Positions 39,520 through 58,265 of a stretch of DNA of 64,000 nt are shown here, piece by piece. Position 1 is the stretch's first letter. Every line of letters begins with the position of its first letter. The stretch is from Candidatus Nitrososphaera evergladensis SR1 (GTDB lineage Archaea; Thermoproteota; Nitrososphaeria; Nitrososphaerales; Nitrososphaeraceae), in NCBI RefSeq assembly GCF_000730285.1, contig NZ_CP007174.1:186001-250000 (forward strand). Direction: 5' to 3'. Under the pieces are notes generated by a model. It saw nothing but the letters and a program-made list of their open reading frames with translations, was not told the origin of the DNA and searched no databases. Position numbers and translations under genes: made by a program.

Positions 39520-39560
39520 CGGCTTTGTGTAATAAGTCGCTCTTGTTAAAAAAGTCCATA

Positions 39561-39575
39561 ATCTGTTTAAAAAGT
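39561..39575. repeat. Left copy of the 15-bp direct repeat flanking the defence island
   Basis: ATCTGTTTAAAAAGT is identical to 48391-48405, with a shorter third copy (CTGTTTAAAAAGT) at 48413-48425. The core TTTAAA could also be a TATA box for the gene at 39651. Confidence 0.7.
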
Positions 39576-39650
39576 CATTTTGAGAACAGTGCGACTAAAT
39601 ATATAGAAATCTTCTATTCTTAAATAACTGGTAGCATTTTACTTTGCTGT

Positions 39651-40211
39651 TTGCCCGAGTACTACTTCGACATCGAGACTGTTCCCTTAGAGTCATTCCG
39701 TGGCGAGGAAAAGGCGGGCACTGTCCCTTCTAAGGCCAAGATAGTAACAATCCAGTATCAGCAACTTCACAGCGTCACGGGCAAGCCGGTCGGCGACCTG
39801 CAGATACTGAAGGAGTGGGAAATTGGAGAACAAGAGATGGTGGAGCAGTTCAAGAAAATCTATCTTGACAAGGGTGTTTGGAACTTCATTCCAGTAGGCA
39901 ACAATCTGGCTTTCGAGTCTCAGTTTATGAAGAGCAAGCTAAAGCAATATTGCAATTTAGAGGGTCTTAGGCTCGGCCACAGACCAATGATCGACCTCAA
40001 GCATGTCTTGGTTATAGCGAATGGCGGCAGGTTCGACGGCTACTCGCGCTTCCTGGGAAAATCAGGGCTGGCAAAGAATATGGAATCGTGGTACTTTGAT
40101 GGCAATTATGACAACATACTAAATTATGTGAAGAAGGAAGCAGAGGATTTTGTGAAGGGTTATTGCATATTGAAGAAGGAACTACCGAGGGTAATAACCG
40201 TCCAATCCTAG
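39651..40211 (+). CDS. DEDD-type 3'-5' exonuclease-like protein
   Basis: 186 residues starting at TTG. YYFDIETVPLE holds the first DxE pair of the RNase H-like DEDD fold, and VGNNLAFESQFMKSKL the second acidic motif. The third motif is less clear (VKKEAEDFVKGYCIL). Related predicted exonucleases act on DNA. Here it opens the defence island, upstream of the methyltransferase gene by about 200 bp. Confidence 0.65.
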   Translation: MPEYYFDIETVPLESFRGEEKAGTVPSKAKIVTIQYQQLHSVTGKPVGDLQILKEWEIGEQEMVEQFKKIYLDKGVWNFIPVGNNLAFESQFMKSKLKQYCNLEGLRLGHRPMIDLKHVLVIANGGRFDGYSRFLGKSGLAKNMESWYFDGNYDNILNYVKKEAEDFVKGYCILKKELPRVITVQS

Positions 40212-40420
40212 ATGTGTTACAGTGTAACTGAGTAAAGCAGAAAAATCATAGTAATCATTTTGCAAGAAGGTTTTCAAATGATCGTTAGTCCGAGGCACAT
40301 TCATGAATCGACCATCGTCGGATTTCGTCTTTTTTCAGCGATTTTTCGCGAAAACCATTTATTCAAAACCAAAAAGTCGAAATACTGGCGGCACATAGGG
40401 ATAGGGGTGGGGCGCAAGAC

Positions 40421-42391
40421 ATGGACAGATTTGTAGACGGCAATTCAGTGAGTTACGTCCCTCCTGGGAAACTACAATCATATCTTACTCAAGAGTTGAT
40501 AAAGGAGACTCCTGAAGAGCATGTCAGGCAAAGAGTCATACGAAGCTTGGTCGAGGAGTATGGCTACGACCTGTCGCAGATAAGGGTTAACTTTAAACTG
40601 GCGGTAGGTGGAAAGCGCCTTCCCGTCGATATAGCAGTTTTTCACGACGGAAAACCACCACTACAAGAAAACATCTACATCATAGTTGAAACAAAACGGC
40701 CAGAGATCAAGAGTACTGATAAAGAGAGTGGCATAGACCAACTGGGAAGTTATGTTTCCAGTGCAATGAATTGCGAATTTGCCCTGTGGACAAACGGTCT
40801 TGAAAAGCTATGCTTTCAGAAGATAGAATCAAAGACAAAGGGACAGAAGTATGAGCCCAAGCCTGTCATTGACATACCCATTCATGGGAAGACAATCGAA
40901 GAGTATGAAAAACCTGATTTTACCCAGCTTCGTCCAGCTACAGAGCTAAAGTCTGTTTTCAAACGTATTAATGATTACATATATGGCCGACAAGGAATGA
41001 GAGAAGACCAAGCATTTCACGAACTGCTCAAGCTAATATTCTGCAAAGTCTATGATGAGAGGTCGGACGAAATCCACTTCTATGTAACGAACAAAGAAAT
41101 TGGCTCAGACATGGGGGCGATGAGTGTAAAAAAACGCATAGACGAATTATTCGACTCGGTTAGAAAACAGTATCAATACATATTCAAAAATGACCCAAAG
41201 ATTCTACTAAATCCGAGAGTCCTTGCTTATGTTGTAGGTCAATTACAGAATTATTATCTGCTCCGAACCGACGCTGATGTAAAAGGCGATGCATACGAAG
41301 AACTTGTCGGTAAGAATTTGCGCGGCAGTCTTGGAGAATATTTCACTCCAAGGAACATTTGCCGATTGGCAGTAAGAATACTCCTTGCGATGCATACGAA
41401 GCAACAGATTCAAGATGCAAAGATAATAGACCCTGCCTGCGGGACAGGTGGATTCCTGATATCTGTCATAGACACAATGAGGCAGTATTATTATGATAGA
41501 GAGATTGCCAAGGACCCTTCGCATGAGAGGGCAATGCAAATCGTAGATGATGAAATTAGAATGTATTGTGCTAGGTGTCTATATGGAATTGACTTTAATG
41601 AAGTTCTGGTTCAAGCAGCGCAGATGAATGAGGTCATCCATGGTAATGGCTCTAGCAATCTTTTCTCGGTGGACTCCCTGAAAGCTCCTGGTGAATGGCC
41701 AATTGATGTTGCGGAAAAAGTCAAGCTTGGCTCCTTTGATATGTTAATGACAAATCCACCATTCGGAGAGAATATTATCATTGATGACCGACATCTCCTA
41801 TCGCAGTATGATCTGGCACACGTCTGGAAAGAAAATGATGATGGAATACTCGAAAGGACTGATGACATTAAATCACGAATGCCTCCACAACTCTTGTTCA
41901 TCGAAAGATCTGTTCAACTGTTAAAACCGAATGGCAAACTGGCAATCGTTCTGCCCGACTCTGTCCTCAGTAATCCAGGGCTAAAGTACGTTCGCCATTG
42001 GATTCTTACGCATACCAAAGTTATAGCCAGCATTGACCTGGCAAAAGAAGCGTTTGAACCTTCAACCGGGACGAAAACCAGCCTTCTGATACTTGAACGA
42101 AAGAACGAGACAGAGATGGCCCTAGAGAAGAAAGGTGGGAAGCTTCCTGACTATGACGTATTCATGGCCATAGCTGGCAAAGTGGGAAAAAACAGTAGAG
42201 GCGACAGCATCTTCAAGAGGACTCCCGAGGGCGAAATGATAGAAATTGAGAAGGAGACATACATAGTAAAAATTGTTGACAGGAGCAAAGTAAGAGAAAA
42301 GCTAGTCACGAAGGAACCCATCTTGGATGATGATTTACCACATATTGGCGATGAATTTGTGGAATGGTGGAATAGGAAAGGCAGGAAATAA
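40421..42391 (+). CDS. hsdM: HsdM-like DNA methyltransferase with N-terminal HsdR-type nuclease domain
   Basis: 656 residues. Residues 30-130 carry the HSDR_N / PD-(D/E)XK layout: Asp70 (PVDIAV), Glu90-x-Lys92 (VETKRP) and Gln107 with Tyr111 (QLGSY). Then the N-6 adenine methylase core follows: DPACGTGGF at 337-345 (SAM binding) and NPPF at 445-448 (catalysis). It ends 1 bp before hsdS. With the nuclease in the same chain, the complex resembles Type IIB/IIG or BcgI-like restriction-modification, so a separate HsdR may not be needed. Confidence 0.88.
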   Translation: MDRFVDGNSVSYVPPGKLQSYLTQELIKETPEEHVRQRVIRSLVEEYGYDLSQIRVNFKLAVGGKRLPVDIAVFHDGKPPLQENIYIIVETKRPEIKSTDKESGIDQLGSYVSSAMNCEFALWTNGLEKLCFQKIESKTKGQKYEPKPVIDIPIHGKTIEEYEKPDFTQLRPATELKSVFKRINDYIYGRQGMREDQAFHELLKLIFCKVYDERSDEIHFYVTNKEIGSDMGAMSVKKRIDELFDSVRKQYQYIFKNDPKILLNPRVLAYVVGQLQNYYLLRTDADVKGDAYEELVGKNLRGSLGEYFTPRNICRLAVRILLAMHTKQQIQDAKIIDPACGTGGFLISVIDTMRQYYYDREIAKDPSHERAMQIVDDEIRMYCARCLYGIDFNEVLVQAAQMNEVIHGNGSSNLFSVDSLKAPGEWPIDVAEKVKLGSFDMLMTNPPFGENIIIDDRHLLSQYDLAHVWKENDDGILERTDDIKSRMPPQLLFIERSVQLLKPNGKLAIVLPDSVLSNPGLKYVRHWILTHTKVIASIDLAKEAFEPSTGTKTSLLILERKNETEMALEKKGGKLPDYDVFMAIAGKVGKNSRGDSIFKRTPEGEMIEIEKETYIVKIVDRSKVREKLVTKEPILDDDLPHIGDEFVEWWNRKGRK

Positions 42392-42392
42392 G

Positions 42393-43991
42393 ATGGCGCT
42401 AGTTTCAAGAGAAGAGCATCAAAATGCGGCGACACTTCGAAGTCTCTCCTTAAAGTCTAGCTGGATTTTCTCTGGCGATTTGAGGCTTGATGCTGATTAC
42501 TACGCTAAAGAAAAAGATCTGGCATTGCGGATACTAAATGACAAACGCTTTTCAACACGTCCCCTCAAAACACTGGTTCAAAGAAAAATGTTTAGTGGTT
42601 ACCGCTTCAAGAGAATTTATGCAGGTGACAAGGAAAAGGGGATCCCTTATCTCAGTGCAACTGAGACCTTGATGTTCAGGCCGAAAAGTGAAAGGTATCT
42701 TTCAAAATCAAAGACGGAGAATTTGGACGATCTCCTCGTAAAAGAAGGTTGGATTCTGATGACATGCTCTGGAGTTATCGGACGGCTTACCATCGTTGAC
42801 AAAAATCTTTCCCAGTTTGTACTCACGCACGATCTTATTCGAATTATACCCAACGAAGAAGAAATTCCTTCAGGTTATCTCTATGCATTTCTCTCAACAT
42901 GGATTGCACAGTCTGTTGTAACCCGGGATCAGTATGGCCTGGCAATAAATCATGTTGAGCCTCACCAGATTGAGGATTTGGCAGTTCCCATCTTGGATAA
43001 GAAAATAATGGGATTATTCGATCATCAAATAAAATATGCTTATTCGTTACGCCAGCAAGCAAATAAGAAGCTAGACGAGGCTGAAGCACTCTTTTACGAT
43101 TCTGCAGGTCTCACCCGGGAAATTGATAACCCACTAAAGAACAGAAAATCGTTTTCACTCAAATCATCCTCGCTGGACACGAGATTAGATGCCTCATTTC
43201 ACAACCCTGTGCTAATAGAGACTTTGCGGATGCTGAGAAAATCCTCGACAAAACTTGTAAAGACAAAAGACTTGGGTAAAGTTATCGTCGCTCCACGTTT
43301 CAAGCGAATCTACGTTGAAAAGGAATACGGCATCCCATTCTTACAGGGAAGCGACTTGCCCATGAACAGGCCATTCAATCTCAAGTACCTATCAAGAAAA
43401 ATGACTGCCAGTCTTAATAATTGGATAATTAAGCCGGGTTGGACACTGGTGACATGTTCGGGAACAATCGGAAGAATTGGGCTGACGACCCCGATTACGG
43501 ATGGGTGGGCTGCTTCACAGCATATTCTCAGAATTATTCCGCATAAGGACAAGCCCTCCGAATTAGAGTATCCTGTAGATGCAGCCTACATCGCTACATT
43601 CCTATCAACACCATATGGATACAATCAGGTTGTTGCAAAGACCTATGGGGGTGTAGTAGATGAAATTGGCGAGAAAGACATTGGCCAGGTTCTGATAGCA
43701 GTAATCCATGACCAGTCAGTACATAATGCGATTTCTCAGCTTACGAGGGAGGCATATGCATTCAAAGATTTGGCTGCTCTAGTGGAACACGAAACGGTAA
43801 GCCTGCTGGAAAACTTACTCGAAGGATCCATCAAGTTTAGTAGCGTTGACAACTTGAGAAAAGCACTCGAAGAGACCATAGAACTAAAAGCAAAAGTGGA
43901 TTCGGTAAACAAAATCTATGAAGGAATCAACGAGGTGGATGAAGGATATGTGGTATCATTTGATGATATCAAGTCAAAATATGGGTTATGA
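42393..43991 (+). CDS. hsdS: HsdS specificity subunit with antitoxin-like tail
   Basis: 532 residues from the ATG at 42393. It contains two homologous halves, each a target-recognition domain ending in a conserved core (EGWILMTCSGVIGR near 112-125, PGWTLVTCSGTIGRIG near 350-365), followed by helical spacers. The last ~35 residues (KAKVDSVNKIYEGINEVDEG then VVSFDDIKSKYGL) differ from a normal HsdS end and resemble the C-terminal part of a RelB/Phd-like antitoxin. A RelE-like toxin gene starts 6 bp later. The TRDs would read a bipartite DNA sequence for the methylase-nuclease. Confidence 0.85.
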   Translation: MALVSREEHQNAATLRSLSLKSSWIFSGDLRLDADYYAKEKDLALRILNDKRFSTRPLKTLVQRKMFSGYRFKRIYAGDKEKGIPYLSATETLMFRPKSERYLSKSKTENLDDLLVKEGWILMTCSGVIGRLTIVDKNLSQFVLTHDLIRIIPNEEEIPSGYLYAFLSTWIAQSVVTRDQYGLAINHVEPHQIEDLAVPILDKKIMGLFDHQIKYAYSLRQQANKKLDEAEALFYDSAGLTREIDNPLKNRKSFSLKSSSLDTRLDASFHNPVLIETLRMLRKSSTKLVKTKDLGKVIVAPRFKRIYVEKEYGIPFLQGSDLPMNRPFNLKYLSRKMTASLNNWIIKPGWTLVTCSGTIGRIGLTTPITDGWAASQHILRIIPHKDKPSELEYPVDAAYIATFLSTPYGYNQVVAKTYGGVVDEIGEKDIGQVLIAVIHDQSVHNAISQLTREAYAFKDLAALVEHETVSLLENLLEGSIKFSSVDNLRKALEETIELKAKVDSVNKIYEGINEVDEGYVVSFDDIKSKYGL

Positions 43992-43997
43992 TACTGG

Positions 43998-44312
43998 ATG
44001 CGCGAAGTCTTCTTTGGGCGTCGAAAGGTCGAAAAAGAATTTTCTAAACTTGATTCTTATACACAAAAGAGGGTAGCAAAGGCAATAGAAGAAATCAGGG
44101 AAAACCCCCAGGTTGGAATTCTTTTAACTGGAGATCTCGCGGGATATTTCAAATATAAATTCGGAAAATTTAGAGCCGTCTATTCTTATGATGAAGAGAA
44201 AATTATGATCGTTGCATTGGATACGCGTGATGACGTATATGATGAGATAAAGCGATACATTAGGGAAGTAGGAAAAATACAAGTGAGTGCGAAAAAAGCC
44301 GTAGACGATTAG
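43998..44312 (+). CDS. RelE/ParE-family toxin
   Basis: 104 residues. VEKEFSKLDSYTQKRVAKAIEEI, then GDLAGYFKYKFGKFRAVYSYDEE and IMIVALDTRDDVYDEI fit the RelE/ParE fold (mRNA-interferase or gyrase toxin). No separate antitoxin ORF lies next to it; the nearest antitoxin-like sequence is the HsdS tail. Last gene of the restriction operon. Confidence 0.8.
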   Translation: MREVFFGRRKVEKEFSKLDSYTQKRVAKAIEEIRENPQVGILLTGDLAGYFKYKFGKFRAVYSYDEEKIMIVALDTRDDVYDEIKRYIREVGKIQVSAKKAVDD

Positions 44313-44379
44313 TTTATCTTACTGGACGATCATTTCTGTTGATATATTTCTCATATAGTAATCCATAATGAATCAGTCG

Positions 44380-44541
44380 TCATTTCTTGCTTACTTTAGC
44401 TTTGATCTTTCCATCTTCAGAGAATATTTCCCATTCGAGCTCATCCTCATGTTTTACCTTGAGAGCATCCGCGACTCCTTCTGGTATTACAGTTTTGACG
44501 CTAGGCGAACCCTTGCGAACGTAATGTACCTTGCTTTTCAA
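44380..44541 (-). CDS. AbrB/MazE-like antitoxin (53 aa)
   Basis: Minus frame from a TTG at 44541 to a TGA at 44380. SKVHYVRKGSPSVKTVIPEG and LKVKHEDELEWEIFS match a swapped-hairpin AbrB domain. It is convergent with the RelE toxin gene and is the only free antitoxin-like gene here, but AbrB domains usually pair with MazF or PIN toxins rather than RelE. Confidence 0.6.
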   Translation of the reverse strand: MKSKVHYVRKGSPSVKTVIPEGVADALKVKHEDELEWEIFSEDGKIKAKVSKK

Positions 44542-44578
44542 TGCTCAAACTACAATACCTACCAGGTCTATTTATCTT

Positions 44579-44633
44579 ATTGGTATATACATAGCCCAAC
44601 AATTATATATAATAGACCAATGTATATACCAAT
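44579..44633. repeat. 14-bp perfect inverted repeat
   Basis: ATTGGTATATACAT (44579-44592) and ATGTATATACCAAT (44620-44633), spacer 27 bases, directly ahead of the transposase gene. It may be a regulatory site of the transposase or the AbrB gene rather than an IS end, because no matching terminal repeat was found after 45705. Confidence 0.7.
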
Positions 44634-44667
44634 ATGCAGCCAAGAGGAGTGCTTTATCATGGCCTAA

Positions 44668-45705
44668 ATGACCAAGCGGAGCAAGCACAAGCGGCGAAAG
44701 GTCACAACCTACTTGGAAGACCGGAGACAGCTTAGGATGACGCAATTTCCTTCTGACAAGCGCCAAACGTATGCTCAAAACTGGAAGGCTTATGATGATG
44801 CACAATGTGGTGAGCAAGATACCTTCTTGAAGCTACTGTCAGATTTGTGTAGAAATGTTGATCAACCTGCCTATGACTTCGGAAGGCCCAGGCTGCCTCT
44901 TTCGGATATGGTTTTTGCTTCTGCGCTGAAAGTGTATTCAACTTTCTCCTTGCGTCGCTTCATGAGCCAGATGCAAAAAGCAGTCGCAGAGGGTCATGTT
45001 GACACTTTCTGTTCTTATTCTTCTGTTTCAAACTATATGCGTAAGAAAGAGCTAACACCGATACTTTACGAACTTATCAAGCTATCAAGCCTTCCACTGG
45101 CTTCCGTAGAAACTACCTTTGGAGTGGATAGTTCTGGCTTTGGTACTTCCTCTCGTTTTGCTAGATATTTCGACTTCAAGCATGGGAAAGACAAGAAGTA
45201 CAAAAAGTGGGTGAAGGCACACATTTGTTGTGGCCTAAAGACAAACGTAATAACTGCAGTCCAGCTTACGGATGGTGACCGTCCTGACCACCCGTACTTT
45301 CAACCATTGTTGGAAAAGACAGCGCAGTCATTTAACCTGAAGGAAGCTGTTGCAGACAAAGCATATCTCAGCAGAACGAATCTCCAGTTTGTAGAAGACC
45401 TCGGTGGAAAACCATTCATTCCCTTCAAGGTGAATAGCCGAGGCTTGGCTATAGGAGCACCTGCCTGGAATAGGATGTACCACTATTTCAACCTCCATAG
45501 AGATGATTTTATGAAGCATTATCACAAGCGGTCGAATGTCGAAACAGCATTTCATATGATAAAGACAAAGTTCAGAGAATATGTAAGAAGTAAGGATGAA
45601 ACGGCGCAATTCAATGAAGTTTTGTTAAAGATTCTATGTCATAATATTTGCGTGGTGATTCAGGAAATACACGAGTTGGGAATACGGGCAGATTTTTCAG
45701 TCTGA
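44668..45705 (+). mobile_element. IS5-like DDE transposase
   Basis: 345 residues. The DDE residues fall in FGVDSSGFG (Asp), VADKAYLSR (Asp) and NVETAFHMIKTKF (Glu), with the Y..R..E-type spacing of the IS5/IS1182 DDE family. The N-terminus has a basic region. No intact terminal inverted repeats or target duplications could be identified, so the ends are not defined. It lies between the restriction operon and the PIN gene and may have displaced material there. Confidence 0.85.
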
Positions 45706-45734
45706 AACCTGGAGAATAATCAAAACTTTTAGAA

Positions 45735-46241
45735 TTAGTATGTATGCGGAATCGTTCCGCCGTTGATTATGTCTAATCCAAATGTCTTCCTGATCTCCTG
45801 TTCAAAGGCAATAAAATCGTGATCAAAAGTCAATAACTCCGTCTTGATATATGTGGCAAATTTGGCGGAAGTAGAAAGAATCCGTAAATCATTTCCGCGC
45901 GGCGGGCCATCTGCAGGACTATTTTTTTTCTTTATTGATACCCACACCTGAATTTGGAGGGTATTTCCTCCCGACCAAATGTTTGCGTACATGTTTTCGA
46001 CGTTTGGCATCAAGGAAACATCATCAGGAAGTATGCCATAGTTTTTGTGAAGTCTACTAAAATTCTCAAGGGATTTATGGACTAGCAGTCTGATTTGAAG
46101 TGGAGTTAATTTTAAATCTCCTCCCTTCTCGGCAAGAATATCCCAAATTTTCTTATGTGTTTCGGATTCGACTGTCTTAATTATCGCAACTTTACTTATC
46201 TCTGAGTCGAGATAATACTTCATTGATTTGTAATTCTGCAA
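45735..46241 (-). CDS. PIN-like protein with no canonical start for its N-terminus
   Basis: The 168-residue ORF begins MQNYKSMKYYLDSE at a TTG. The same frame is open further upstream and codes VVPDTNACLSYSINHK, the first PIN strand with the catalytic Asp (46301-46299). No ATG, GTG or TTG precedes it; only ATA/GTA codons are available near the stop of the upstream gene. The C-terminus LLTFDHDFIAFE has the PIN-like Asp pair. Thus the real protein probably starts near 46313 by coupled or non-standard initiation. Possible toxin of the neighbouring gene. Confidence 0.55.
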   Translation of the reverse strand: MQNYKSMKYYLDSEISKVAIIKTVESETHKKIWDILAEKGGDLKLTPLQIRLLVHKSLENFSRLHKNYGILPDDVSLMPNVENMYANIWSGGNTLQIQVWVSIKKKNSPADGPPRGNDLRILSTSAKFATYIKTELLTFDHDFIAFEQEIRKTFGLDIINGGTIPHTY

Positions 46242-46309
46242 TTGAATAGGTATGCCGTGGATTTTATGGTTTATTGAATAGCTGAGGCAGGCATTAGTGT
46301 CTGGAACTA

Positions 46310-47170
46310 CTATGCTGTCAGATTTAAATTGGAAAGGGACTGCGCTAGCCGTTTCGCTTCTTCCTCCGTGAACGCCTCGTCAAGAGTACGTTCGAAAGGA
46401 TTATTATAGATTTTTCTTTTATCACAATATCCTAGAAGATAAGACTCTAACTCTGCAATCTCCAAGAATCTTGGACGTAGCAATTCCGAATTTGCAGGCG
46501 GCCTTACATCCTTTGATGTATCGGCAATCTTGTGAATGAGTTCTCTGGAAAGGTAGAGTGCCACTCCTCTCTTGGCTGTATCTGATACGCTTTCGAGTGC
46601 CTTCAAGATATTGCCGATTATTTCTAACGTAGAGAGAACAAACGCGGATTGCCGATTATTATACGTCCTACTGCATTCAATTAAGGGAGGTAAGATGTTC
46701 TCCAGTTCTTTTTTTACCTCGGCGGCCAACTTTAGTGAATCCTTAGGGTCAATGCCAAACTTGGAGTAGACTTCATCGAGAAGTTCGCATCTGGTTCTTG
46801 CCAATCGTGATTCAATAATATTTTCTACTTTCTCTAATGTACGGGGCAGAAGTTCTTTTTTCATTTTTTCGATCTCCTTCTTACCATTGCTGGTCAAATA
46901 GAAAGAAAAGTAATGTTGACCATAATTCATCATTGATTCATTTTCGACTATAGTTACTAAGCCTGAGTAGGCAGATAAATCAAGCTCCAATAGGTCTGAG
47001 AATGGCCCATAATGATATTTTCTGAAGTCATATTCGTCTATGTGTGCCAAGACTTGAGTAAGAAATGTTAGCTTTTGGAATTTGGTTTTGCCGTGGATTA
47101 CACCATCAGATTTATCGAGTATGAGCAAAGGAAGCCAGAGTCTTTCAGGGATTTCAGTATTCACAGGCAA
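46310..47170 (-). CDS. YwgA-like hypothetical protein
   Basis: 286 residues. The section HGKTKFQKLTFLTQVL and FRKYHYGPFSDLLELDLSAY, a short motif K-L-x-FL followed by YGPFS, resembles YwgA/Panacea-related wing-like domains found in defence and TA contexts. The second half is helical (LREL). Its stop overlaps the open frame of the PIN-like protein. Function unknown. Confidence 0.5.
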   Translation of the reverse strand: MPVNTEIPERLWLPLLILDKSDGVIHGKTKFQKLTFLTQVLAHIDEYDFRKYHYGPFSDLLELDLSAYSGLVTIVENESMMNYGQHYFSFYLTSNGKKEIEKMKKELLPRTLEKVENIIESRLARTRCELLDEVYSKFGIDPKDSLKLAAEVKKELENILPPLIECSRTYNNRQSAFVLSTLEIIGNILKALESVSDTAKRGVALYLSRELIHKIADTSKDVRPPANSELLRPRFLEIAELESYLLGYCDKRKIYNNPFERTLDEAFTEEEAKRLAQSLSNLNLTA

Positions 47171-47484
47171 AACCTCCTATTACAGGATACGTACTACTGT
47201 TAAGTATATCTACACATGAGCTAGTTATCTGACTCTTATTGCATTGACAAACCATTTGCGACGCCCTTTGAACAGAAATTGGTGCCGTCCTTTCGTCGCA
47301 GTTTGAACCAAAACAGCATAGTCATACGGTAGTTGTTATTCTATAGACTATAAAACTTTTCTATATAAGGGTGCTCAAAATCCGCCATTGTTTGAAAAGT
47401 CCCACTAGAATCTCGGATAGCAAGAGACGAAGCAATCTCGCTGCGGGTTAAGACATCAATATTTAAGCGCTGCGGGTCTCGAAC
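47171..47484. other. Gene-free region
   Basis: No ORF seen. AT-rich sequence with likely divergent or upstream promoters of the YwgA-like gene. Confidence 0.4.
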
Positions 47485-48360
47485 TCATTTTGCTTTAGTT
47501 TGCACTGTTGTAGATTGATGCCAAACTTCATCGAAGTACTTCAGCAGCTTTCTCATAACATTTGCATCTGAAATTATTGCGCCGGTATTGTACTGCTTCA
47601 TGAGACCATCTTGGGTTAGGTCGGCTGACGAAATAAGAGCCTCTTCATTATCCCTTATTATTATTCTAGAATGAACGAAGTTGTTGATTCTATGGTTATC
47701 CTTTAGATTATCCTTGATGAAGCCAAAAGCCTGCCTTTTATCACTTGTAAATTCATCTCTGGCTCTTGTAATGATTTGAATGTTGGCGCTCTTGCTTTTT
47801 TCAAGGATATCCTTAACGAATGACATGTCCGCGTATGGCGAGATAATCTTCAATGTATGATTGCAATTACAAATCATCCGTTTTGCCTCATCCTCCAGCG
47901 ACCTGTCATGCGGCGGAATTGTTGTCACGAGGTCTAGTTGTCCTGTTTGTTCTTCCCACTCTTCGTCTATGCGAATCGCAACTCTCTTTGAGCTGAAAGT
48001 GGAATATCGGTTATCCAATAGGAAATGAAGTGATCCGCCTGAATGCACTTGCAAAGTAACCTGTCCTGAAGGTACCTGTCCTGAATAATGGGAATATTGT
48101 ACAGGGCAGAGATAAGCGTTGTTATTTCTTAGACAGTTTAGAGCCCAGGTGACAAACTGATCTCTACTTAGCACATACAACCGTATATCGTCAACAGTGT
48201 TGCTCTGATTAATGTGCAGGACGGTGAAAGATACAGAGATTTTATGATTAGTCTTGCCCAAGTGATCCAAATCATATGAAAGGACAGATATTCCATTTAG
48301 GCTAGTAGGAATATCTAACATTCCATCATAAAGGATTCTGAACTGTTTTCTTGAACCCAT
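47485..48360 (-). CDS. Phospholipase D-like protein
   Basis: 291 residues. The C-terminal half has ICNCNHTLKIISPYADMSFVKDIL, then NNFVHSRIIIRDNEEALISSADLT and a YNTGAII ending, the PLD-like core with conserved Ser-Ala-Asp-Leu-Thr. The HKD Lys is replaced by Arg (HSRI). Only one HKD motif is visible, so it would act as a dimer, or be inactive. PLDc nucleases are common in phage defence. Confidence 0.7.
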   Translation of the reverse strand: MGSRKQFRILYDGMLDIPTSLNGISVLSYDLDHLGKTNHKISVSFTVLHINQSNTVDDIRLYVLSRDQFVTWALNCLRNNNAYLCPVQYSHYSGQVPSGQVTLQVHSGGSLHFLLDNRYSTFSSKRVAIRIDEEWEEQTGQLDLVTTIPPHDRSLEDEAKRMICNCNHTLKIISPYADMSFVKDILEKSKSANIQIITRARDEFTSDKRQAFGFIKDNLKDNHRINNFVHSRIIIRDNEEALISSADLTQDGLMKQYNTGAIISDANVMRKLLKYFDEVWHQSTTVQTKAK

Positions 48361-48390
48361 GTTCCGTCAGGCAATTTCATTCTGGAGAAT

Positions 48391-48425
48391 ATCTGTTTAA
48401 AAAGTAAGCTGGCTGTTTAAAAAGT
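48391..48425. repeat. Right copies of the island direct repeat
   Basis: ATCTGTTTAAAAAGT at 48391-48405 is identical to 39561-39575; a 13-bp copy follows at 48413-48425. It is 60-90 bp ahead of a truncated integrase. Candidate attachment site. Confidence 0.7.
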
Positions 48426-48484
48426 ATCGACAGTTACCGACTTTTTACACAAAGCCTCTCCATACTGGAGCTAGGGCTTTTGCT

Positions 48485-49118: not shown

Positions 49119-49910
49119 TCAGCTCAACAAGTCTTTCAATGAGATTTTTAGCTCTGCCAGAATTGTCTCCAGCTCAGGCAGCGGCTCCGGGCTCAGTCTG
49201 GTAAGCCATGTGTCAAGGTAAGGTTCCAGTTTCTTTGCAATGTCAGCCGGAAACATCTGCTCTACGCCTGTAAAGGTAACTCCTTTTGACTTGCATTTCT
49301 GAAGGAAAAGCTCTTTCAACTCTTGCTTGTCGAACTTGCGAATCTTTAGCAGCCTCCATACATCATAGTAATCTCTGATCTTTCCCCGTTCGATGATTGC
49401 CCTCATCTTTTCTGCAAGTAGATTATCAAGCGCATAGACTTTGACTGCAAATTTTGGATAATCGTACGTGTGTGGAACTGATTTTCTTACGACCTTGCCA
49501 ATAAACGGTTCTCTGGAGATTTCTATTTTGATGTTGTTCTTGCTCAGCGGTCCTGTGTACTTGATTTTGCCCCGGAAAAATTCTGGATTAGCAAGAGGGT
49601 CTCCCTTCATCTCGATGTTTATGCCACTTGCCTTCTGCACGATTCCGGGTACCTCGTACATTACGCCTGTGCCCAGAACCAGCATCTCACTCTCATCGAC
49701 AGCAGTAAAGTCCAAGTCTTCTGAAAGACGCCATCTGCCGGGAAAGTATATCTTGGACAGTGCAGTGCCGCCCTTGAACGCCAGAGAGCCTGAAGCAGCA
49801 CTTGATGCTATTCCAAAGAGTATCCATCCAAGAACATAATCTTTTTCCACCACATCGACAGGCAGATTTCTTTCTCTGGCCACGGCTCTGAGTTCGCGAT
49901 CTGTTATCAT
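49119..49910 (-). CDS. AbiEii nucleotidyltransferase toxin (type IV)
   Basis: 263 residues. FKGGTALSKIYF and RLSEDLDFTAVDESE are the GG and DxD nucleotidyltransferase motifs of AbiEii/AbiGii toxins, with EKMRAIIERGKIRDYYDVWRL matching the third conserved section. Such toxins add nucleotides to RNA and act in phage abortive infection. The gene lies 4 bp after the AbiEi gene in the same operon. Confidence 0.9.
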   Translation of the reverse strand: MITDRELRAVARERNLPVDVVEKDYVLGWILFGIASSAASGSLAFKGGTALSKIYFPGRWRLSEDLDFTAVDESEMLVLGTGVMYEVPGIVQKASGINIEMKGDPLANPEFFRGKIKYTGPLSKNNIKIEISREPFIGKVVRKSVPHTYDYPKFAVKVYALDNLLAEKMRAIIERGKIRDYYDVWRLLKIRKFDKQELKELFLQKCKSKGVTFTGVEQMFPADIAKKLEPYLDTWLTRLSPEPLPELETILAELKISLKDLLS

Positions 49911-49914
49911 TCTT

Positions 49915-50730
49915 CTAGTGCTCCATCCATTCTTTTAGCTCTTTATCGGATCTGTTTATTATCAATCCGTATTTCTTGGAGTACCCGAGGACTTTCTTTG
50001 GACCCAGAGGGTCAAGCCACATGAACCCCTTGAATCTGTTAGAGGCTATCCTGTCAGCTATTTCACTTTCGATGTTAAGCAATTCAAGCGCATAGCCAAG
50101 CCTTCTAGTCACTACACTAATTCCTAGCTTTTTACCATACTCTATAAGTCTATCAAAGTTCAGCTCATTCCTTGCTTCCCATATGCCTTTTACTGCTTCA
50201 TCAAGCCCGCCGCAATACTTGGGATACATCAAGCAGTCCAGCACCGTCTTTTCCCTAGATGATATCTTGAACTTGGTACCGGCTATTTCGCCTTCTTCAA
50301 AGCCAAAGAACCTTTTTTTTGCAAGCTTGATGAATTTGAAGACATTCGGTCCATATTCCAAGTCTCTTCTCCTCTTGGTCGTGGCAACGAACACTACGCG
50401 CGGTACCTGTTCTGTCATTCCCCAGTAGTTGAGAGCAGAGTAAAAGCCAACATAGTATTCGTTCAAAATGTTAGGCAGTATCAAAAATGGTACCTCTGAC
50501 CACAGTCCTTCGTATCCTGCCTTGGCAGGGATGAGAAGGTACTTGCCTCTCTCTATTTCCTCTATCCTCTTCTTTTTCTTGAGTCGGTAGATGACGTTCC
50601 ATACCGAGGCGTCAGAGGTTCGAAGTATTTCTTTGGCATCCTTCATTGAGAAGATGCTCTTGTTTTCCTTCTCGAGAGTAAAGAGCAGCCTGAGCTCATT
50701 TGCCCCCAAGTTTAAGTTCTGTGTGCTCAT
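49915..50730 (-). CDS. AbiEi-type antitoxin/regulator
   Basis: 271 residues from the Met at 50730 (MSTQNLNL), which fits the family better than the upstream MLYKS. The N-terminal winged helix (NELRLLFTLEKENKSIFSMKDAKEIL, then VIYRLKKKKRIEEIERGKYLL) is the AbiEi DNA-binding domain, and the rest follows the AbiEi/DUF6088 layout. It would repress its operon and neutralise AbiEii. Confidence 0.88.
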   Translation of the reverse strand: MSTQNLNLGANELRLLFTLEKENKSIFSMKDAKEILRTSDASVWNVIYRLKKKKRIEEIERGKYLLIPAKAGYEGLWSEVPFLILPNILNEYYVGFYSALNYWGMTEQVPRVVFVATTKRRRDLEYGPNVFKFIKLAKKRFFGFEEGEIAGTKFKISSREKTVLDCLMYPKYCGGLDEAVKGIWEARNELNFDRLIEYGKKLGISVVTRRLGYALELLNIESEIADRIASNRFKGFMWLDPLGPKKVLGYSKKYGLIINRSDKELKEWMEH

Positions 50731-50913
50731 ACTCTTGTATAACAAGAGTCTAGTTACACAAGTATTAATAGATGACGTTGATATATGAAAAATTAGGATT
50801 TCCTAAACTCCCTTTCCTAGGTTAGATTGTTGTGTGAATAATTGTCTGAAACAAGCTTGACTTCTAATAGACAACACTAACTCGTAATCTGTCTCCTTGC
50901 AATGCCTAGCGAA

Positions 50914-53900
50914 TCAAATGACGTAGTGATGCTTCGAATGACTTCCGGATGTCACCTTTAGTGAATTTGCTTTGATATCACTAACTATCTGGAAAATGTT
51001 CTGTTCGGTGTCTGAGGCCTGATCGCTCTCTGTAGTAGTTATTAGGTTGTCTCCGATTCCTACTTTCTCGTATATGCCCAGTTTTTGAATCCACCTATTT
51101 CTATAACTTCTGTTATCCATGTGACCGAGATGCTCTAGATAGTATGCTATTCCGTCAATTTCGAATTTGAAGTCCGGTAGAACTCGATATTCCTGTAAGA
51201 AGTCTCTCGGTTCATATTCTAGCCTTTCACAAAAGTTATCCAAAGTCCTTCCGATAATCTGCTCTATCTTATTCCTGACCTCGATCGTCATACCATTCTT
51301 AAGAGTCAGCAAATAAGGTCTGTAAGGTGATGACTTGTGACCAAATAGCAGTGTCCTTCTCTGTTCGACAGATGAATTTTCGTAAGCCTTAGCAAATATT
51401 AGCGCAAGTTCATCTTTTAGACTGTTATGGATCATTAAATGGAGTTTTGTCCTGATTCGAGTAAATGCTGTGTAGAGCAGCTCGCGCATGATAAAAGGGC
51501 TCATCTCAGGGATTACCAAGATGACGTGCTCATAGTCACTCCCTTGTGCCTTATGCACAGTTATGGCATATCCGAAGTTTATTGTTCTTTCTATTCCAAT
51601 GTAATCGTCGCGCACTTCCCGTTTTATGTTCTCAATGTCATAGCTCCATTCAAAGTCGCGCTGGAAATCATCTAGGTCTTCAAAGCTAACAGAGCCATCA
51701 GGCATTATGTAGCCCACCGAACCATTCGCCAAGGCTAATACACGTTTGTATCTGCCATCCTTCTTTACGTAAACATATTTGTTCTCTTCGCAGATAAGCT
51801 TCGTTCTTGGTGAAAATTCTTGTGCCCCTTCCTTTACCACATTGGTATTGATGAACATCGAACCGAAGCTGCCGACTCGTCTCGGAGTAATTATCTGTAT
51901 CCTATCGAGTACAGGCTTAGATGAATCTTCATAAATGTCTCCAAACATATCTGACAACGCTCCTGCTTTTGGTTTGCCTATTGAGTTGAGTACCTTCCTT
52001 ACAGACTCTTTCAATTCATGATCACTACTGAAATAATGTATCTCTAAGGTCGAGTCGTTCTTTGCTAAGGCATCCGCTATCTCGTGGGGATGCGGTGACT
52101 TGTTTCCGCCGAAGATCTCCGCTAGAAAACCGATGCGGGCGGTAGTGTCAAATCTCAGATTAGATTCAAGACGAATGTAGTTGCTCTCCATTCCGGTCCT
52201 TTTCAATTGGAATATCGTGTCTACAAATGGTCTGCCTGCACCAATAGGAGGAAGCTGCTTTTCATCTCCTACCACAATGAGATGCTTAAGATTATCAGCA
52301 TTGATCATTGCAAACAGTGCCGAGAGTAGAACTTCGTCTATCATTGAAGCTTCATCAATGATAACAACTTGCGGCGAGAATCTGAATCCTTTTGACATCT
52401 CCATAAAATCGTCTAGCACTTCAAGCTTGCCGGAAAGTATTTTCGAGATCAGATCAACCATCATGGATGCCTGTTGACCGATATTCGAATTCGGTCGATA
52501 TTCATTATATCTATTGTAAGAGCTGTATTTGTTCTGAGTTTGATAGTTTCTTATTGCGTCAAAAATGGCGGAGTAAAGAAACCTGTGAATGGTTAATATC
52601 TTTATTCGATTGTCATCGGTAAGGCCGTGAGGCTTAAGGCGATCCCTTATCACGATGTTCGCCTTTCCAGTTGGCGTAAAGACGAATATCGGTGTATTAC
52701 CTAATTCCCTGAACCTTTGTATGAGATTAACAACAGCCGTTGTTTTGCCACTCCCTGCCTTACCAGAGAGAATGAATAAGCCGTTTTCGAGCGCATTACG
52801 GTAGAGCACTTGTCGTTCATTAGAATTTAACTTGTCACCAGCTCCTTGTTTTTCGAGCCTGACGATGTTATCTATCCAAGATTGGTCCGAACTACTCAGC
52901 GTATGTTTCTTGGTCATCATTTTTTTGAAGAATTGTTCTAGGGCATCTTCGACTGTCCTTAACTGTTTTAGCTGATATAGAACAGGACCTCCCTGAAAAC
53001 TTTCATCCTTTATTACGAACTTTTCTTTAAAAATTGGTTGCTTTTCATATTCTATTAGCTTATCTACGTCGATATTAAGCTCATCAGCGATGTAGAACAA
53101 CGGATAGTTCTTTATCGACCCTATGATCTCTTCCCTTGTCAGACATGAGCTGCCTTCTCTTGCTACATCATAAAGTATCTTGGTGATCACTGCTCTGATT
53201 CTTTCTGGGGATTGTGCAGAATATGGTGTTTCCCAGTCAGCATAATCTAGGTCGGGAATTAAAGCCATGTCAATCTGGTAGAGGTTTATGCCGTAGTCGG
53301 CCTCATCTATGTTCCAGCTATCTTCTCCATCGAAATGATACTTCTCCAACAGAAGATAAGGATTCTTCTTAATGGTCTGGAAGCCGATCTTGTTTATTAT
53401 TTCCTTGACATTGCTGAACTGAATTGTAGAGAAGTCGAAGATGGATAAGAATCTTAATAATTCTTTGTTTACCTCTATCTCCCGTAGTGCTTTTGCTATA
53501 GCCGGCTCTTCAGCTGTAAGGCGTGTCGTTGAGCTAAAGAATTTATCAAGACTCCCAGTTTTCTTTAGAATAAACGATCTGACTGCCGAAATTGTATCCT
53601 TGAGCTTCTCGGGCGCGAAGTCGGTCTTCAATATGGAATGCAGAGAATTCTCAAATCCGGGGTACTTACTCCTCTCTTTCCATGCAATATTCAATAGTCT
53701 GTCTACAACGAATTCTATCTTTTCCATCTCTGAATAAGGCACTATCTCACCATGTTCCTTCATCTTTCTCAGAGACCTCTTGAAGAGGTAAAGAAGGAAT
53801 ATGGCTTTGTCATGATTGACGTGCATCGACACATACTTGAAGTGAGGAATGACATTGCCCTCGTTGATGGGGATTACTATCTCTTCAAGTTTCTTCCATC

Positions 53901-54648
53901 TTTCACTCCTTTGCGTGCCTTGGGCATCTTCAGTCCATCGAAGATATTCGTGATAGGGCATGATAAAGGTCGTTTCAGGTTTTAGGTTTATTTGGAATTG
54001 CCAAGAGGATGTTGGAAAATTCTGCATCCTGTCGCCACTCCTCAGTTCTTGAAGCAGTGATTGTGGAATGCTGTATTCTATCGGCTTCTCTAAACCTTCT
54101 ACAAGACCGGCTCCGAGCAAGACATATCTGTAATCATCGCCTGTCAGTGGATTGCTATAATTGGCATAAAAGAACGCTATCGACTTTTCTTTAGATATCT
54201 CTCCTGTGTAGACATCAACTCTTTTCTTAAGCTCTGATGTGGGAACATACAGTTGTTCGCTACGGTCTTCGCCAAAGCCAAGTTTAAAGCACCAAGTGAA
54301 GACTGAATTATGGCGAAGTGTGCTCTTTAATGGAGGGGCTTGCTTGCTGAACTTTTCGCTCATACGTTTCAGATCTTGGAACGGATGTGGATCAGTTATC
54401 GGGTAGTCTTTTTCTCCAAGGGCATTTATGGACCAGTAACATGGAGGAATGTAATTTGCAGATTTCAGAGCATCTGAGACCGGGCGCTCCTTTAGCCTGC
54501 CCTCGAGGTCCAAGTTAATCCTCTTCTGAATCCTAGGAGAGATCAGGGAATAGTTGTCTCTACAGTAGAAGTTGCCGGTCGGGTCTACGCATATTCTGCC
54601 ATTCCACTTGTTATCATGCCAAGCGAACCTTACTGTAACGTGTTTCAT
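50914..54648 (-). CDS. Large helicase-nuclease (RecD2-like superfamily 1 helicase with C-terminal PD-(D/E)XK)
   Basis: 1244 residues. The first ~600 are unrecognised and may be a sensor or DNA-binding region. Helicase motifs: GKAGSGKTT near 628, IIDEAS near 761, GDEKQLPPIGAG near 795, ITVHKAQGSDY near 1031 and YTAFTRIR near 1057. The C-terminus has PDFKFEIDGIAYYLEHLGHM (1156-1175) and RWIQKLGIYEKVGIGDNLITT, the nuclease domain common behind such helicases (Asp, Glu-x-x-G). It would unwind and cut DNA, probably foreign DNA or replication intermediates. Divergent from the membrane protein at 54766. Confidence 0.85.
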   Translation of the reverse strand: MKHVTVRFAWHDNKWNGRICVDPTGNFYCRDNYSLISPRIQKRINLDLEGRLKERPVSDALKSANYIPPCYWSINALGEKDYPITDPHPFQDLKRMSEKFSKQAPPLKSTLRHNSVFTWCFKLGFGEDRSEQLYVPTSELKKRVDVYTGEISKEKSIAFFYANYSNPLTGDDYRYVLLGAGLVEGLEKPIEYSIPQSLLQELRSGDRMQNFPTSSWQFQINLKPETTFIMPYHEYLRWTEDAQGTQRSERWKKLEEIVIPINEGNVIPHFKYVSMHVNHDKAIFLLYLFKRSLRKMKEHGEIVPYSEMEKIEFVVDRLLNIAWKERSKYPGFENSLHSILKTDFAPEKLKDTISAVRSFILKKTGSLDKFFSSTTRLTAEEPAIAKALREIEVNKELLRFLSIFDFSTIQFSNVKEIINKIGFQTIKKNPYLLLEKYHFDGEDSWNIDEADYGINLYQIDMALIPDLDYADWETPYSAQSPERIRAVITKILYDVAREGSSCLTREEIIGSIKNYPLFYIADELNIDVDKLIEYEKQPIFKEKFVIKDESFQGGPVLYQLKQLRTVEDALEQFFKKMMTKKHTLSSSDQSWIDNIVRLEKQGAGDKLNSNERQVLYRNALENGLFILSGKAGSGKTTAVVNLIQRFRELGNTPIFVFTPTGKANIVIRDRLKPHGLTDDNRIKILTIHRFLYSAIFDAIRNYQTQNKYSSYNRYNEYRPNSNIGQQASMMVDLISKILSGKLEVLDDFMEMSKGFRFSPQVVIIDEASMIDEVLLSALFAMINADNLKHLIVVGDEKQLPPIGAGRPFVDTIFQLKRTGMESNYIRLESNLRFDTTARIGFLAEIFGGNKSPHPHEIADALAKNDSTLEIHYFSSDHELKESVRKVLNSIGKPKAGALSDMFGDIYEDSSKPVLDRIQIITPRRVGSFGSMFINTNVVKEGAQEFSPRTKLICEENKYVYVKKDGRYKRVLALANGSVGYIMPDGSVSFEDLDDFQRDFEWSYDIENIKREVRDDYIGIERTINFGYAITVHKAQGSDYEHVILVIPEMSPFIMRELLYTAFTRIRTKLHLMIHNSLKDELALIFAKAYENSSVEQRRTLLFGHKSSPYRPYLLTLKNGMTIEVRNKIEQIIGRTLDNFCERLEYEPRDFLQEYRVLPDFKFEIDGIAYYLEHLGHMDNRSYRNRWIQKLGIYEKVGIGDNLITTTESDQASDTEQNIFQIVSDIKANSLKVTSGSHSKHHYVI

Positions 54649-54765
54649 ATCCGAAAACGAGAAACTAACTTTATGCTTCCTAATTAACCTCTTGTTAGGC
54701 TAAACATTTCTTCAACTCCACTGTCTTTTAATACTTAAACGAAATTTCATTGAATGGTCGTCTGA

Positions 54766-55833
54766 GTGAGATACAAACCTAGTGAGTCTGACGCAAAATC
54801 ACTTGCATTAGTTGGTGCGGGTATTCTCGCCAGTTTTACTCTAGCGGTATTCGACATACACACTTCCCTCAAGAGTATAGGAGCTACAGTCGAAATTGCT
54901 CTTGCGATATCAATTGCTTATGTAGTTATCATGGTTGCGGTAATGATAGCTGCCATTCTTTACGGACCGGGCATCCTTACCGACTGGAAACAAAAAAGGG
55001 TTCGAAGAAAGCGATTGCAGGGAACTCTAATGATAGGCATTCTATCAGACATTCCATGGAACGATTACACTCGCCCATATTTTGCATCTGGTTTCAGACC
55101 TGAGGATTGGGAAAAAATAATCTACAGCGTTGCCAATGATATTCATCTAAAATTTGAAATCCAACAGATTTCAGTTGATAAGGATTTTGAGCCGTTTATT
55201 GCTATTCTGAATCCTTATGGTGGAGCATATCCGGAGGCGGATCTAGGAGAAAGCGCAACTTTGAAGAAGATAAAAAACTATGTTGCAAATGGCGGCTTAT
55301 TCGTTAATATTTCAGATGTACCAACGTATTATGTATACGGGCTGACGCTCAAAAAGATTACAGATAATACCCCAGCTCTTTACGATACGATTTCTAGCGG
55401 CAAAAAAGTTAACATTGTTGAGTATAGACCTTTTAGTAATACACCCTTGATAAAGGGACTAGCCCTTAGAATTGTTACATTTGATAGTGGAACACAATGC
55501 AATGTAGAACTAGCTTCCGATAATGGTTTCTCACAATTTACAAAGTGTTCGATGACGTACAGAAGGGCACTGGTAATTGATTCGAACGTTGAAAGCTGTA
55601 TTGAACCACTATCAGTTGTTGTTTATGATAATTCATTACGAATACAGCATGGTAGCCAAAATTACGATATCTCCCCTATCTTCTATGTCAATTTTGAAGA
55701 AGGGCACTTTCTTGTCTCACTTGCATATCTAGATGATGGGTTTCACACTAGTGACGACAGTATCGCTCTTGCAGACACACTTGCTAAATCTATGTTAGAT
55801 ACAGTAGTTGCAACCGCAAAAGGACTTCCATAA
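54766..55833 (+). CDS. Membrane-anchored GATase/DUF4350-like protein
   Basis: 355 residues starting at GTG. Two TM helices (about 15-35 and 43-70) are followed by a basic loop (KQKRVRRKRLQG) and a large domain: IAILNPYGGAYPEADLGES, GGLFVNISDVPTYYVYG and further strands, like class I glutamine-amidotransferase-like folds. The catalytic Cys of true amidotransferases is not evident. It is divergent from the helicase with a 117-bp shared promoter region, so it may be a membrane-linked partner of it. Role inferred only. Confidence 0.55.
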   Translation: MRYKPSESDAKSLALVGAGILASFTLAVFDIHTSLKSIGATVEIALAISIAYVVIMVAVMIAAILYGPGILTDWKQKRVRRKRLQGTLMIGILSDIPWNDYTRPYFASGFRPEDWEKIIYSVANDIHLKFEIQQISVDKDFEPFIAILNPYGGAYPEADLGESATLKKIKNYVANGGLFVNISDVPTYYVYGLTLKKITDNTPALYDTISSGKKVNIVEYRPFSNTPLIKGLALRIVTFDSGTQCNVELASDNGFSQFTKCSMTYRRALVIDSNVESCIEPLSVVVYDNSLRIQHGSQNYDISPIFYVNFEEGHFLVSLAYLDDGFHTSDDSIALADTLAKSMLDTVVATAKGLP

Positions 55834-56981: not shown

Positions 56982-58265
56982 ATGGTTGAAATAACAATGG
57001 GAAATGTGTGGGAAGACCTTGGATTTACAGGCAATCCCTATGATCCCCGAGCACTATCAATAAGCGACGAAGACAGAAAACTACTAATCGACAGAACTAA
57101 CGAGCTACAGATGTTAACGACTCTAGTCAATTCCGGGAAGGGCATCACAATAGTAGAAGGAGGCATTGGAGTTGGAAAAACTAGCTTGGTTAATGCCATG
57201 CAATACGACTTGTTGCATCAGAAAAAGAACACAATTCTACCAGCATTCCAAAAGATTGAACTCACAGATGGCAACATGGAACCGAAGAATTTCATCCTCT
57301 CCACCTTTTCCAACATGATATTCAGCCTTGAGAAATTAACGAATACAGACTTGGCAAAACAAACAGGGATATTGAAGGAAGGAAAGCTGCTCGTTGCCCA
57401 GACAATCCAGTCTGGCTTTGCAGGAAATCTCCAAGCCTTTGGTTTTGGTGGTGGAATGTCACGTAGCCCATCTACCACTCATCCAGCAGCCGTAACATTG
57501 CCTGCCATATTGAATACGATGGACAAATGGGTAGAATACGTATCAAAGAATACCGAATATGATGGGCCAGTAGTTATCCCTGTAAATAATATGGATATCT
57601 TGGATGACAAGGAAATCGTATCATTTCTTAACTCAATGCGAGACACTCTGATTGATAGACCACATATCGTGTGGATATTGATAGGCAGAAAAGGTCTGTT
57701 CTCCTTGCTTGAAAGTGAAGCTAGAAGGGTTAGCGAGATAATAACAGGTCAACCCGTAGTACTCCAGCCGCTAACATTGCAAGATGTATACAACGCGATA
57801 AAGATACGCGTCAAACTGCTAAGCCTAAACAAGAAAAGTAGAGATGGCGGCATAGTTTCTGATGAGATAGTAAAGATTCTCTATGATGCCTCACAAGGAG
57901 AGATACGATATGTTTTCAAAAGAATAACGGATATCATACTCAAGTTCAGAGGGCAGTTCCCTTCAGTCTCTCAAATCCCATTAGATGTGGCAAAATCAAT
58001 GATCATTGATTTTGCCAAGTCCAGGATAGATGCACTGAATCTATCTTCAAAGGAATTGGCTGTGCTCAAAAGCATTGTCAAAAAGGGATCAATGCGAACA
58101 AAGGAATACCAGAGTGTAGGATTGCAAACTCCTCAAGCTTTGAATAAATATCTTGCAAGCTTTTACAAACAGAATCTGGTTGTAAAGGAGTATGGAGAGG
58201 GCAGAGCTGTCTACTATAGGCCCACAGCAGATACAATTTTTGCACTCCAAGATGCCGCTAAATAG
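56982..58265 (+). CDS. AAA-type ATPase with C-terminal winged helix
   Basis: 427 residues. Walker A GGIGVGKTSLVN near 66-77; the Walker B-like strand VVIPVNNMDILDD near 198-210; sensor region ILIGRKGLFSLLE. The C-terminal ~80 residues form a winged helix (VLKSIVKKGSMRTKEYQSVG, then LASFYKQNLVVKEY). This is similar to archaeal Orc/Cdc6-like or STAND-type regulators from mobile elements. It probably binds DNA and ATP, possibly for replication control or segregation of an integrated element. Confidence 0.75.
   Translation: MVEITMGNVWEDLGFTGNPYDPRALSISDEDRKLLIDRTNELQMLTTLVNSGKGITIVEGGIGVGKTSLVNAMQYDLLHQKKNTILPAFQKIELTDGNMEPKNFILSTFSNMIFSLEKLTNTDLAKQTGILKEGKLLVAQTIQSGFAGNLQAFGFGGGMSRSPSTTHPAAVTLPAILNTMDKWVEYVSKNTEYDGPVVIPVNNMDILDDKEIVSFLNSMRDTLIDRPHIVWILIGRKGLFSLLESEARRVSEIITGQPVVLQPLTLQDVYNAIKIRVKLLSLNKKSRDGGIVSDEIVKILYDASQGEIRYVFKRITDIILKFRGQFPSVSQIPLDVAKSMIIDFAKSRIDALNLSSKELAVLKSIVKKGSMRTKEYQSVGLQTPQALNKYLASFYKQNLVVKEYGEGRAVYYRPTADTIFALQDAAK

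Follow-up and report, generated by a model that had tools for sequence, protein, structure and literature searches.

The 1244-aa gene examined here most likely encodes a stand-alone helicase-nuclease of the PDC-S68 family that acts against mobile elements and is carried as cargo of a low-GC accessory island, and the membrane protein gene beside it would be an independent gene of mobile elements. We put the probability of this reading at roughly 0.7. The window (the whole stretch of 64,000 nucleotides that was analysed) covers positions 186001-250000 of the 2.95-Mb single-contig genome of Candidatus Nitrososphaera evergladensis SR1. A genome search showed that the helicase gene is present there as a single copy.

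Results

Locus and neighboring genes

The features of the locus are listed in Table 1. The 1244-aa and 355-aa ORFs lie where the first-pass annotation had placed them, diverging across 117 bp, and both genes belong to one common low-GC stretch. The same annotation had noted AbiE and restriction genes close to the helicase, and both were recovered by Pfam and PADLOC searches. In addition, its descriptions of a two-TM membrane protein, a RecD-type helicase, a C-terminal nuclease, and an N-terminus of about 600 residues without a known family all agreed with the results given below. Downstream of the membrane gene, a 427-aa AAA/STAND-like ATPase is encoded at 56982-58265; its family matches are weak.

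Table 1. Features of the locus in window coordinates, and genes found at other loci of the helicase
Feature	Position or locus	Strand	Evidence or remark
PDC-S68 family helicase-nuclease	50914..54648	-	ATG start, 1244 aa; PADLOC full-length match
Conserved N-terminal region, residues 1-265, possible EVE/PUA-like barrel at ~150-225	53854..54648	-	Alignments, AF2 model
Helical RecD2-like HHH region, then winged-helix-like segment, residues 276-605	52834..53823	-	Fold and profile matches
SF1B RecD2-like helicase core, residues about 616-1075	51424..52803	-	Pfam, NCBIfam, invariant columns
PD-(D/E)xK-type nuclease, residues 1085-1244	50917..51396	-	Invariant motifs, weak PDB profile matches
Divergent intergenic region, 117 bp	54649..54765	.	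AT-rich TATA-like stretches on both sides, read from the sequence only
Two-TM membrane protein, alpha/beta-type domain, ILNPYGGxYPExD motif	54766..55833	+	GTG start, 355 aa; TM prediction
AbiEii/AbiEi toxin-antitoxin pair, adjoining the helicase	49119..50745	-	PADLOC AbiEii 2e-72, AbiEi 5.4e-81
Restriction-modification gene set, near the helicase	40421..43991		Pfam and PADLOC searches
HsdM-HsdS-HsdR, then helicase	L048		Operon-like
Helicase-HsdR	L049, L046		Operon-like
BREX type 3: BrxF, BrxC, intact PglXI, helicase, split PglXI, GajA, GajB	L038:1537-18706 (G487)		
HsdMSR and AbiE-like genes near helicase	L021		
Type IIG restriction-modification near helicase	L020		
GmrSD near helicase	L037		
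Type ISP restriction-modification near helicase	L025		
HsdR/HsdS near helicase	L024		
Methyltransferase with SNF2 near helicase	L026		
NACHT near helicase	L028		
DrmD-like gene near helicase	L045		
HSDR_N/RAMA near helicase	L047		

Family and domains of the helicase-nuclease

Residues 2-1243 of the protein matched positions 71-1271 of the 1273 in PADLOC model PDLC05064 (PDC-S68). The E-value of this full-length match was 3.6e-281, and thus chance is excluded. Judged by this match, the protein is a member of PDC-S68, a family already catalogued in PADLOC, and the "undescribed" system of the first-pass annotation does not hold for the helicase. The PDC label denotes putative candidate systems identified by guilt-by-embedding, most of which have no experiments behind them (PMC12988326). 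Our literature search found no paper that mentions PDC-S68 by name, no published experimental test of it, and no literature on MJ1519.

The motor was recognized by Pfam (AAA_19, AAA_30, and UvrD_C_2) and by NCBIfam as RecD2 (1e-47), with a TIGR01448 (RecD2) score of 162.8 bits against an equivalog cut-off of 500. We aligned 13 diverse sequences from archaea, Bacteroidota, and Proteobacteria, which were 23-53% identical to the window protein. Walker A (629-636), DEAS (765-768), QLPPIG (798-803), and motif VI (VHKxQGS, 1031-1037) were invariant in this alignment, and so were E1129, E1146, D1159 (within PDF 1158-1160), and the EH pair E1172 and H1173 of the nuclease. K1189 was also kept in the 13 sequences, and in a second set, with viral contigs included, it was almost invariant. 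E1129, D1159, E1172, H1173, and K1189 follow the residue order of a PD-(D/E)xK active site. Furthermore, conservation of the catalytic motifs extends to homologues from archaea, bacteria, plasmids, and viral contigs. PDB profile matches of the nuclease were weak, with T7 endonuclease I at the top (E = 0.15) and the nuclease Bax1 at E = 0.25; both are PD-(D/E)xK enzymes.

N-terminal region

Residues 1-600 matched no Pfam family, save a sub-threshold HHH_RecD2 match at residues 477-502. The AF2 model of the N-terminal 605 residues reached a pLDDT of 84.8 and a pTM of 0.88, and in the BFVD fold search it matched a RecD2-like HHH protein (E = 0.009). The winged-helix matches of residues 276-605 in the PDB fold search were non-significant.

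The alignments of residues 1-265 showed an opening WHD..W.G.xC..P..N..C block and a PPC motif, with C20, C29, and C70 nearly invariant. The top PDB fold match of this part was PH1033, an EVE protein (E = 0.41, non-significant), and a viral EVE protein was among the BFVD fold matches, again non-significant. Using hhalign, we compared the N-terminal profile with EVE proteins of the same phylum; 100 column shuffles, the reversed profile, and other parts of the helicase served as controls. The EVE score was 25.0. The best of the 100 shuffles reached 20.3, the reversed profile 12.2, and the other helicase parts 12-15. The probability was 7-33% over 28-32 columns, above the 100 shuffles and the other domains. 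The alignment paired the strand motif KSLVFFYAN...LiGvGrV with the EVE core GDxxxFY...VGI..V. Meanwhile, Pfam gave no EVE match in this part of the protein, and searching PDB sequences with an N-terminal profile returned nothing. An EVE/PUA-like fold that reads modified bases may be present in the first ~265 residues; this is a lead and not a finding, since EVE was examined because the fold search pointed there.

The membrane protein

Two transmembrane segments were predicted at residues 13-31 and 44-62. No family was found in Pfam or NCBIfam, including GATase, which the first-pass annotation had proposed, and PADLOC gave a single weak CARF match (E = 0.0084). The structural model had a pLDDT of 41.7 and was too poor for use, showing no more than a rough alpha/beta order. 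A search of 397 genomes of the phylum returned relatives in G011 and G155, and a plasmid search returned one in Saccharolobus shibatae pB12E5; one of these relatives is a 657-aa archaeal protein. Its three distant relatives show this ORF to be a genuine gene. The relative in G011 is a pseudogene with an in-frame TGA, split across reading frames and lying beside a tyrosine recombinase. No relatives were found in the viral contigs searched.

The membrane protein was absent from all of the 10 other genomes with the helicase, and the helicase was absent from all three genomes or records with a membrane-protein relative (G011, G155, and pB12E5). The empty search is informative because the same query retrieved G011 and G155, although it could have overlooked relatives that are very diverged. 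In G158, G363, and G230, other membrane ORFs adjoin the helicase; we considered these as partners and rejected them, as BLAST showed no similarity to the membrane protein of the window and Pfam gave no match. Given the mutual absence, the membrane gene appears to travel with mobile elements independently of the helicase and to be a neighbor rather than a part of the system.

Distribution and genomic contexts of the helicase

The helicase is patchily distributed, being found in 5 of 398 genomes of the phylum and in 1 of 101 relatives. A homologue is also encoded by M. jannaschii. Some homologues are present on small plasmids, and many are on plasmids or viral contigs.

We read the flanking genes of 18 loci besides the window. 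Defence genes (restriction-modification, BREX, Gabija, GmrSD, or similar) were found in the flanks of 13 of them (Table 1), a count without a clean control, since archaeal defence islands gather unrelated genes and restriction-modification is common on the plasmids and viral contigs that host the homologues. No clear defence neighbor was found at the other five loci (G230, G322, G483, G672, and a Vibrio plasmid). In G363, restriction-modification genes, helicase, and AbiE occur together as in the window, with AbiE there assigned by ORF resemblance only. In the BREX locus of G487, the second PglXI copy is split over two ORFs. A rough estimate of enrichment, for one methyltransferase family in nine genomes, gave two close cases where about 0.2 were expected; the enrichment is only modest. 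No partner was common to all loci read, as is the case for a single-gene candidate. In G672, an apparently identical PDC-S68 gene lies on two contigs (L039 and L040) near a phage terminase, which could be a duplication or an assembly artefact.

A duplicated transposon-like unit in the island

The 8.9-kb segment at window positions 39519-48456 is repeated at genome positions 956493-965430 on the other strand with 100% identity. Its ends are marked by a 19-bp terminal inverted repeat, GGCTTTGTGTAAWAAGTCG, which occurs exactly four times in the genome in two variants one base apart. The second copy is flanked by a 9-bp target-site-like direct repeat, GTTGACGAC, when the repeat start is taken at GGCTTT; no such direct repeat was found at the borders of the window copy. 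The unit carries genes for a DDE transposase, a methyltransferase, a specificity protein, and ParE-like, DarG-related, and PLD proteins. The whole resembles a DDE transposon that moved recently, with restriction-modification and toxin-antitoxin-like cargo. The helicase, AbiE, and membrane genes all lie outside it.

Several genes here deserve a brief record. A 286-aa protein (46310-47170) is weakly related to a DarG region and to PDC-M19A, and it adjoins a 168-aa protein of no known family (45735-46241); the two are a possible toxin-antitoxin-like pair. A PLD-family nuclease (47485-48360), within the duplicated unit, is related to NgoFVII and DrmC. In addition, a ParE-like toxin (43998-44312) directly follows an HsdS-like gene, and its antitoxin was not identified.

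Discussion

The first-pass annotation had proposed a defence pair of a helicase-nuclease and a membrane-linked sensor. One half of this proposal stands: the helicase-nuclease is probably a defence gene, as its context and its place in the catalogue suggest, and the defence reading is retained because genes of restriction-modification, BREX, Gabija, GmrSD, or similar systems lie close to it at 13 of the 18 other loci. The pairing and the novelty do not stand. Helicases without the membrane partner were indeed found, but mostly in defence contexts and not in the non-defence contexts that the annotation had named as counting against the pair.

Beyond the observed domain order, catalytic motifs, family membership, defence-rich contexts, and lack of co-occurrence, we infer a recognition target, a polarity, a nuclease action, and a defence function for the PDC-S68 protein. 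Loading would most likely depend on the N-terminal region together with the HHH/winged-helix part, which would engage some feature of the invader's DNA: a modified base, a DNA end, or a replication fork. The motor would then translocate 5' to 3' on ATP, a polarity expected from the SF1B family, and the C-terminal PD-(D/E)xK nuclease would cut the invading DNA. Adjoining restriction-modification or BREX genes probably act alongside the helicase and not as its subunits. A bolder form of this scheme, in which PDC-S68 is a one-protein modification-dependent restriction machine whose N-terminal EVE/PUA-like reader detects modified bases of the invader's DNA and licenses the SF1B motor and the PD-(D/E)xK nuclease, is tentative, and we would sooner bet against it. 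This combination is absent from the passages of the EVE survey available to us (PMC7641849).

A two-component system, in which infection is sensed by the membrane protein and the helicase-nuclease is released or recruited by it, could be suggested by the divergent arrangement of the two genes across a short gap in a common low-GC stretch. It is highly improbable: the membrane protein is missing from all 10 other genomes with the helicase, its three relatives are found where the helicase is not, and the membrane ORFs close to the helicase in G158, G363, and G230 do not resemble the membrane protein of the window. As a conserved pair, it is already refuted.

Two other explanations concern the helicase itself. 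The protein might be a RecD2/Dna2-like helicase-nuclease of DNA repair or replication that merely accumulates in accessory islands, and the closeness of its motor to RecD2, the five loci without defence neighbors, and the homologue in M. jannaschii agree with this. However, such a housekeeping gene would hardly show so patchy a spread, copies on small plasmids, and operon contexts with restriction-modification or BREX genes, and we consider this unlikely. The operon-like layouts with HsdMSR (L048), HsdR (L049 and L046), and BREX type 3 (L038) could instead point to an accessory subunit that degrades DNA cut by the adjoining restriction systems. Against this, the partners vary (type I, IIG, ISP, BREX, GmrSD, and DISARM-like) and several loci have none, and thus there is no fixed restriction partner; we regard such a subunit as quite unlikely. 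The stand-alone anti-mobile-element helicase-nuclease is the reading we prefer. With it, a false partner is removed, the archaeal range of the candidate defence family PDC-S68 gains a further lineage, and the family receives a testable mechanism (N-terminal reader, SF1B motor, and nuclease) with named residues.

Comparison with known systems

The window protein shares its motor motifs and an HHH-like N-terminal section with the RecD2/RecD SF1B helicases. However, it falls far below the RecD2 equivalog cut-off (163 vs 500 bits) and carries two additional parts, one an N-terminal region and the other a C-terminal nuclease. With EVE-domain modification-dependent restriction enzymes (such as VcaM4I and EVE-McrB), it may share a PUA-superfamily reader joined to a nuclease, but its effector is an SF1B helicase with PD-(D/E)xK instead of HNH or McrBC, and the EVE similarity is non-significant. 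Hna and Druantia DruE, the latter belonging to a multi-gene system, are likewise large defence proteins that unite a motor with a nuclease. The motors of Hna and DruE are SF2 and that of the window protein is SF1B. The closest likeness is to PDC-S68 of PADLOC (PDLC05064-05066): the match spans the full length (residues 2-1243), the domain content is the same, no difference was found, and this family thus has a further archaeal member in the window protein.
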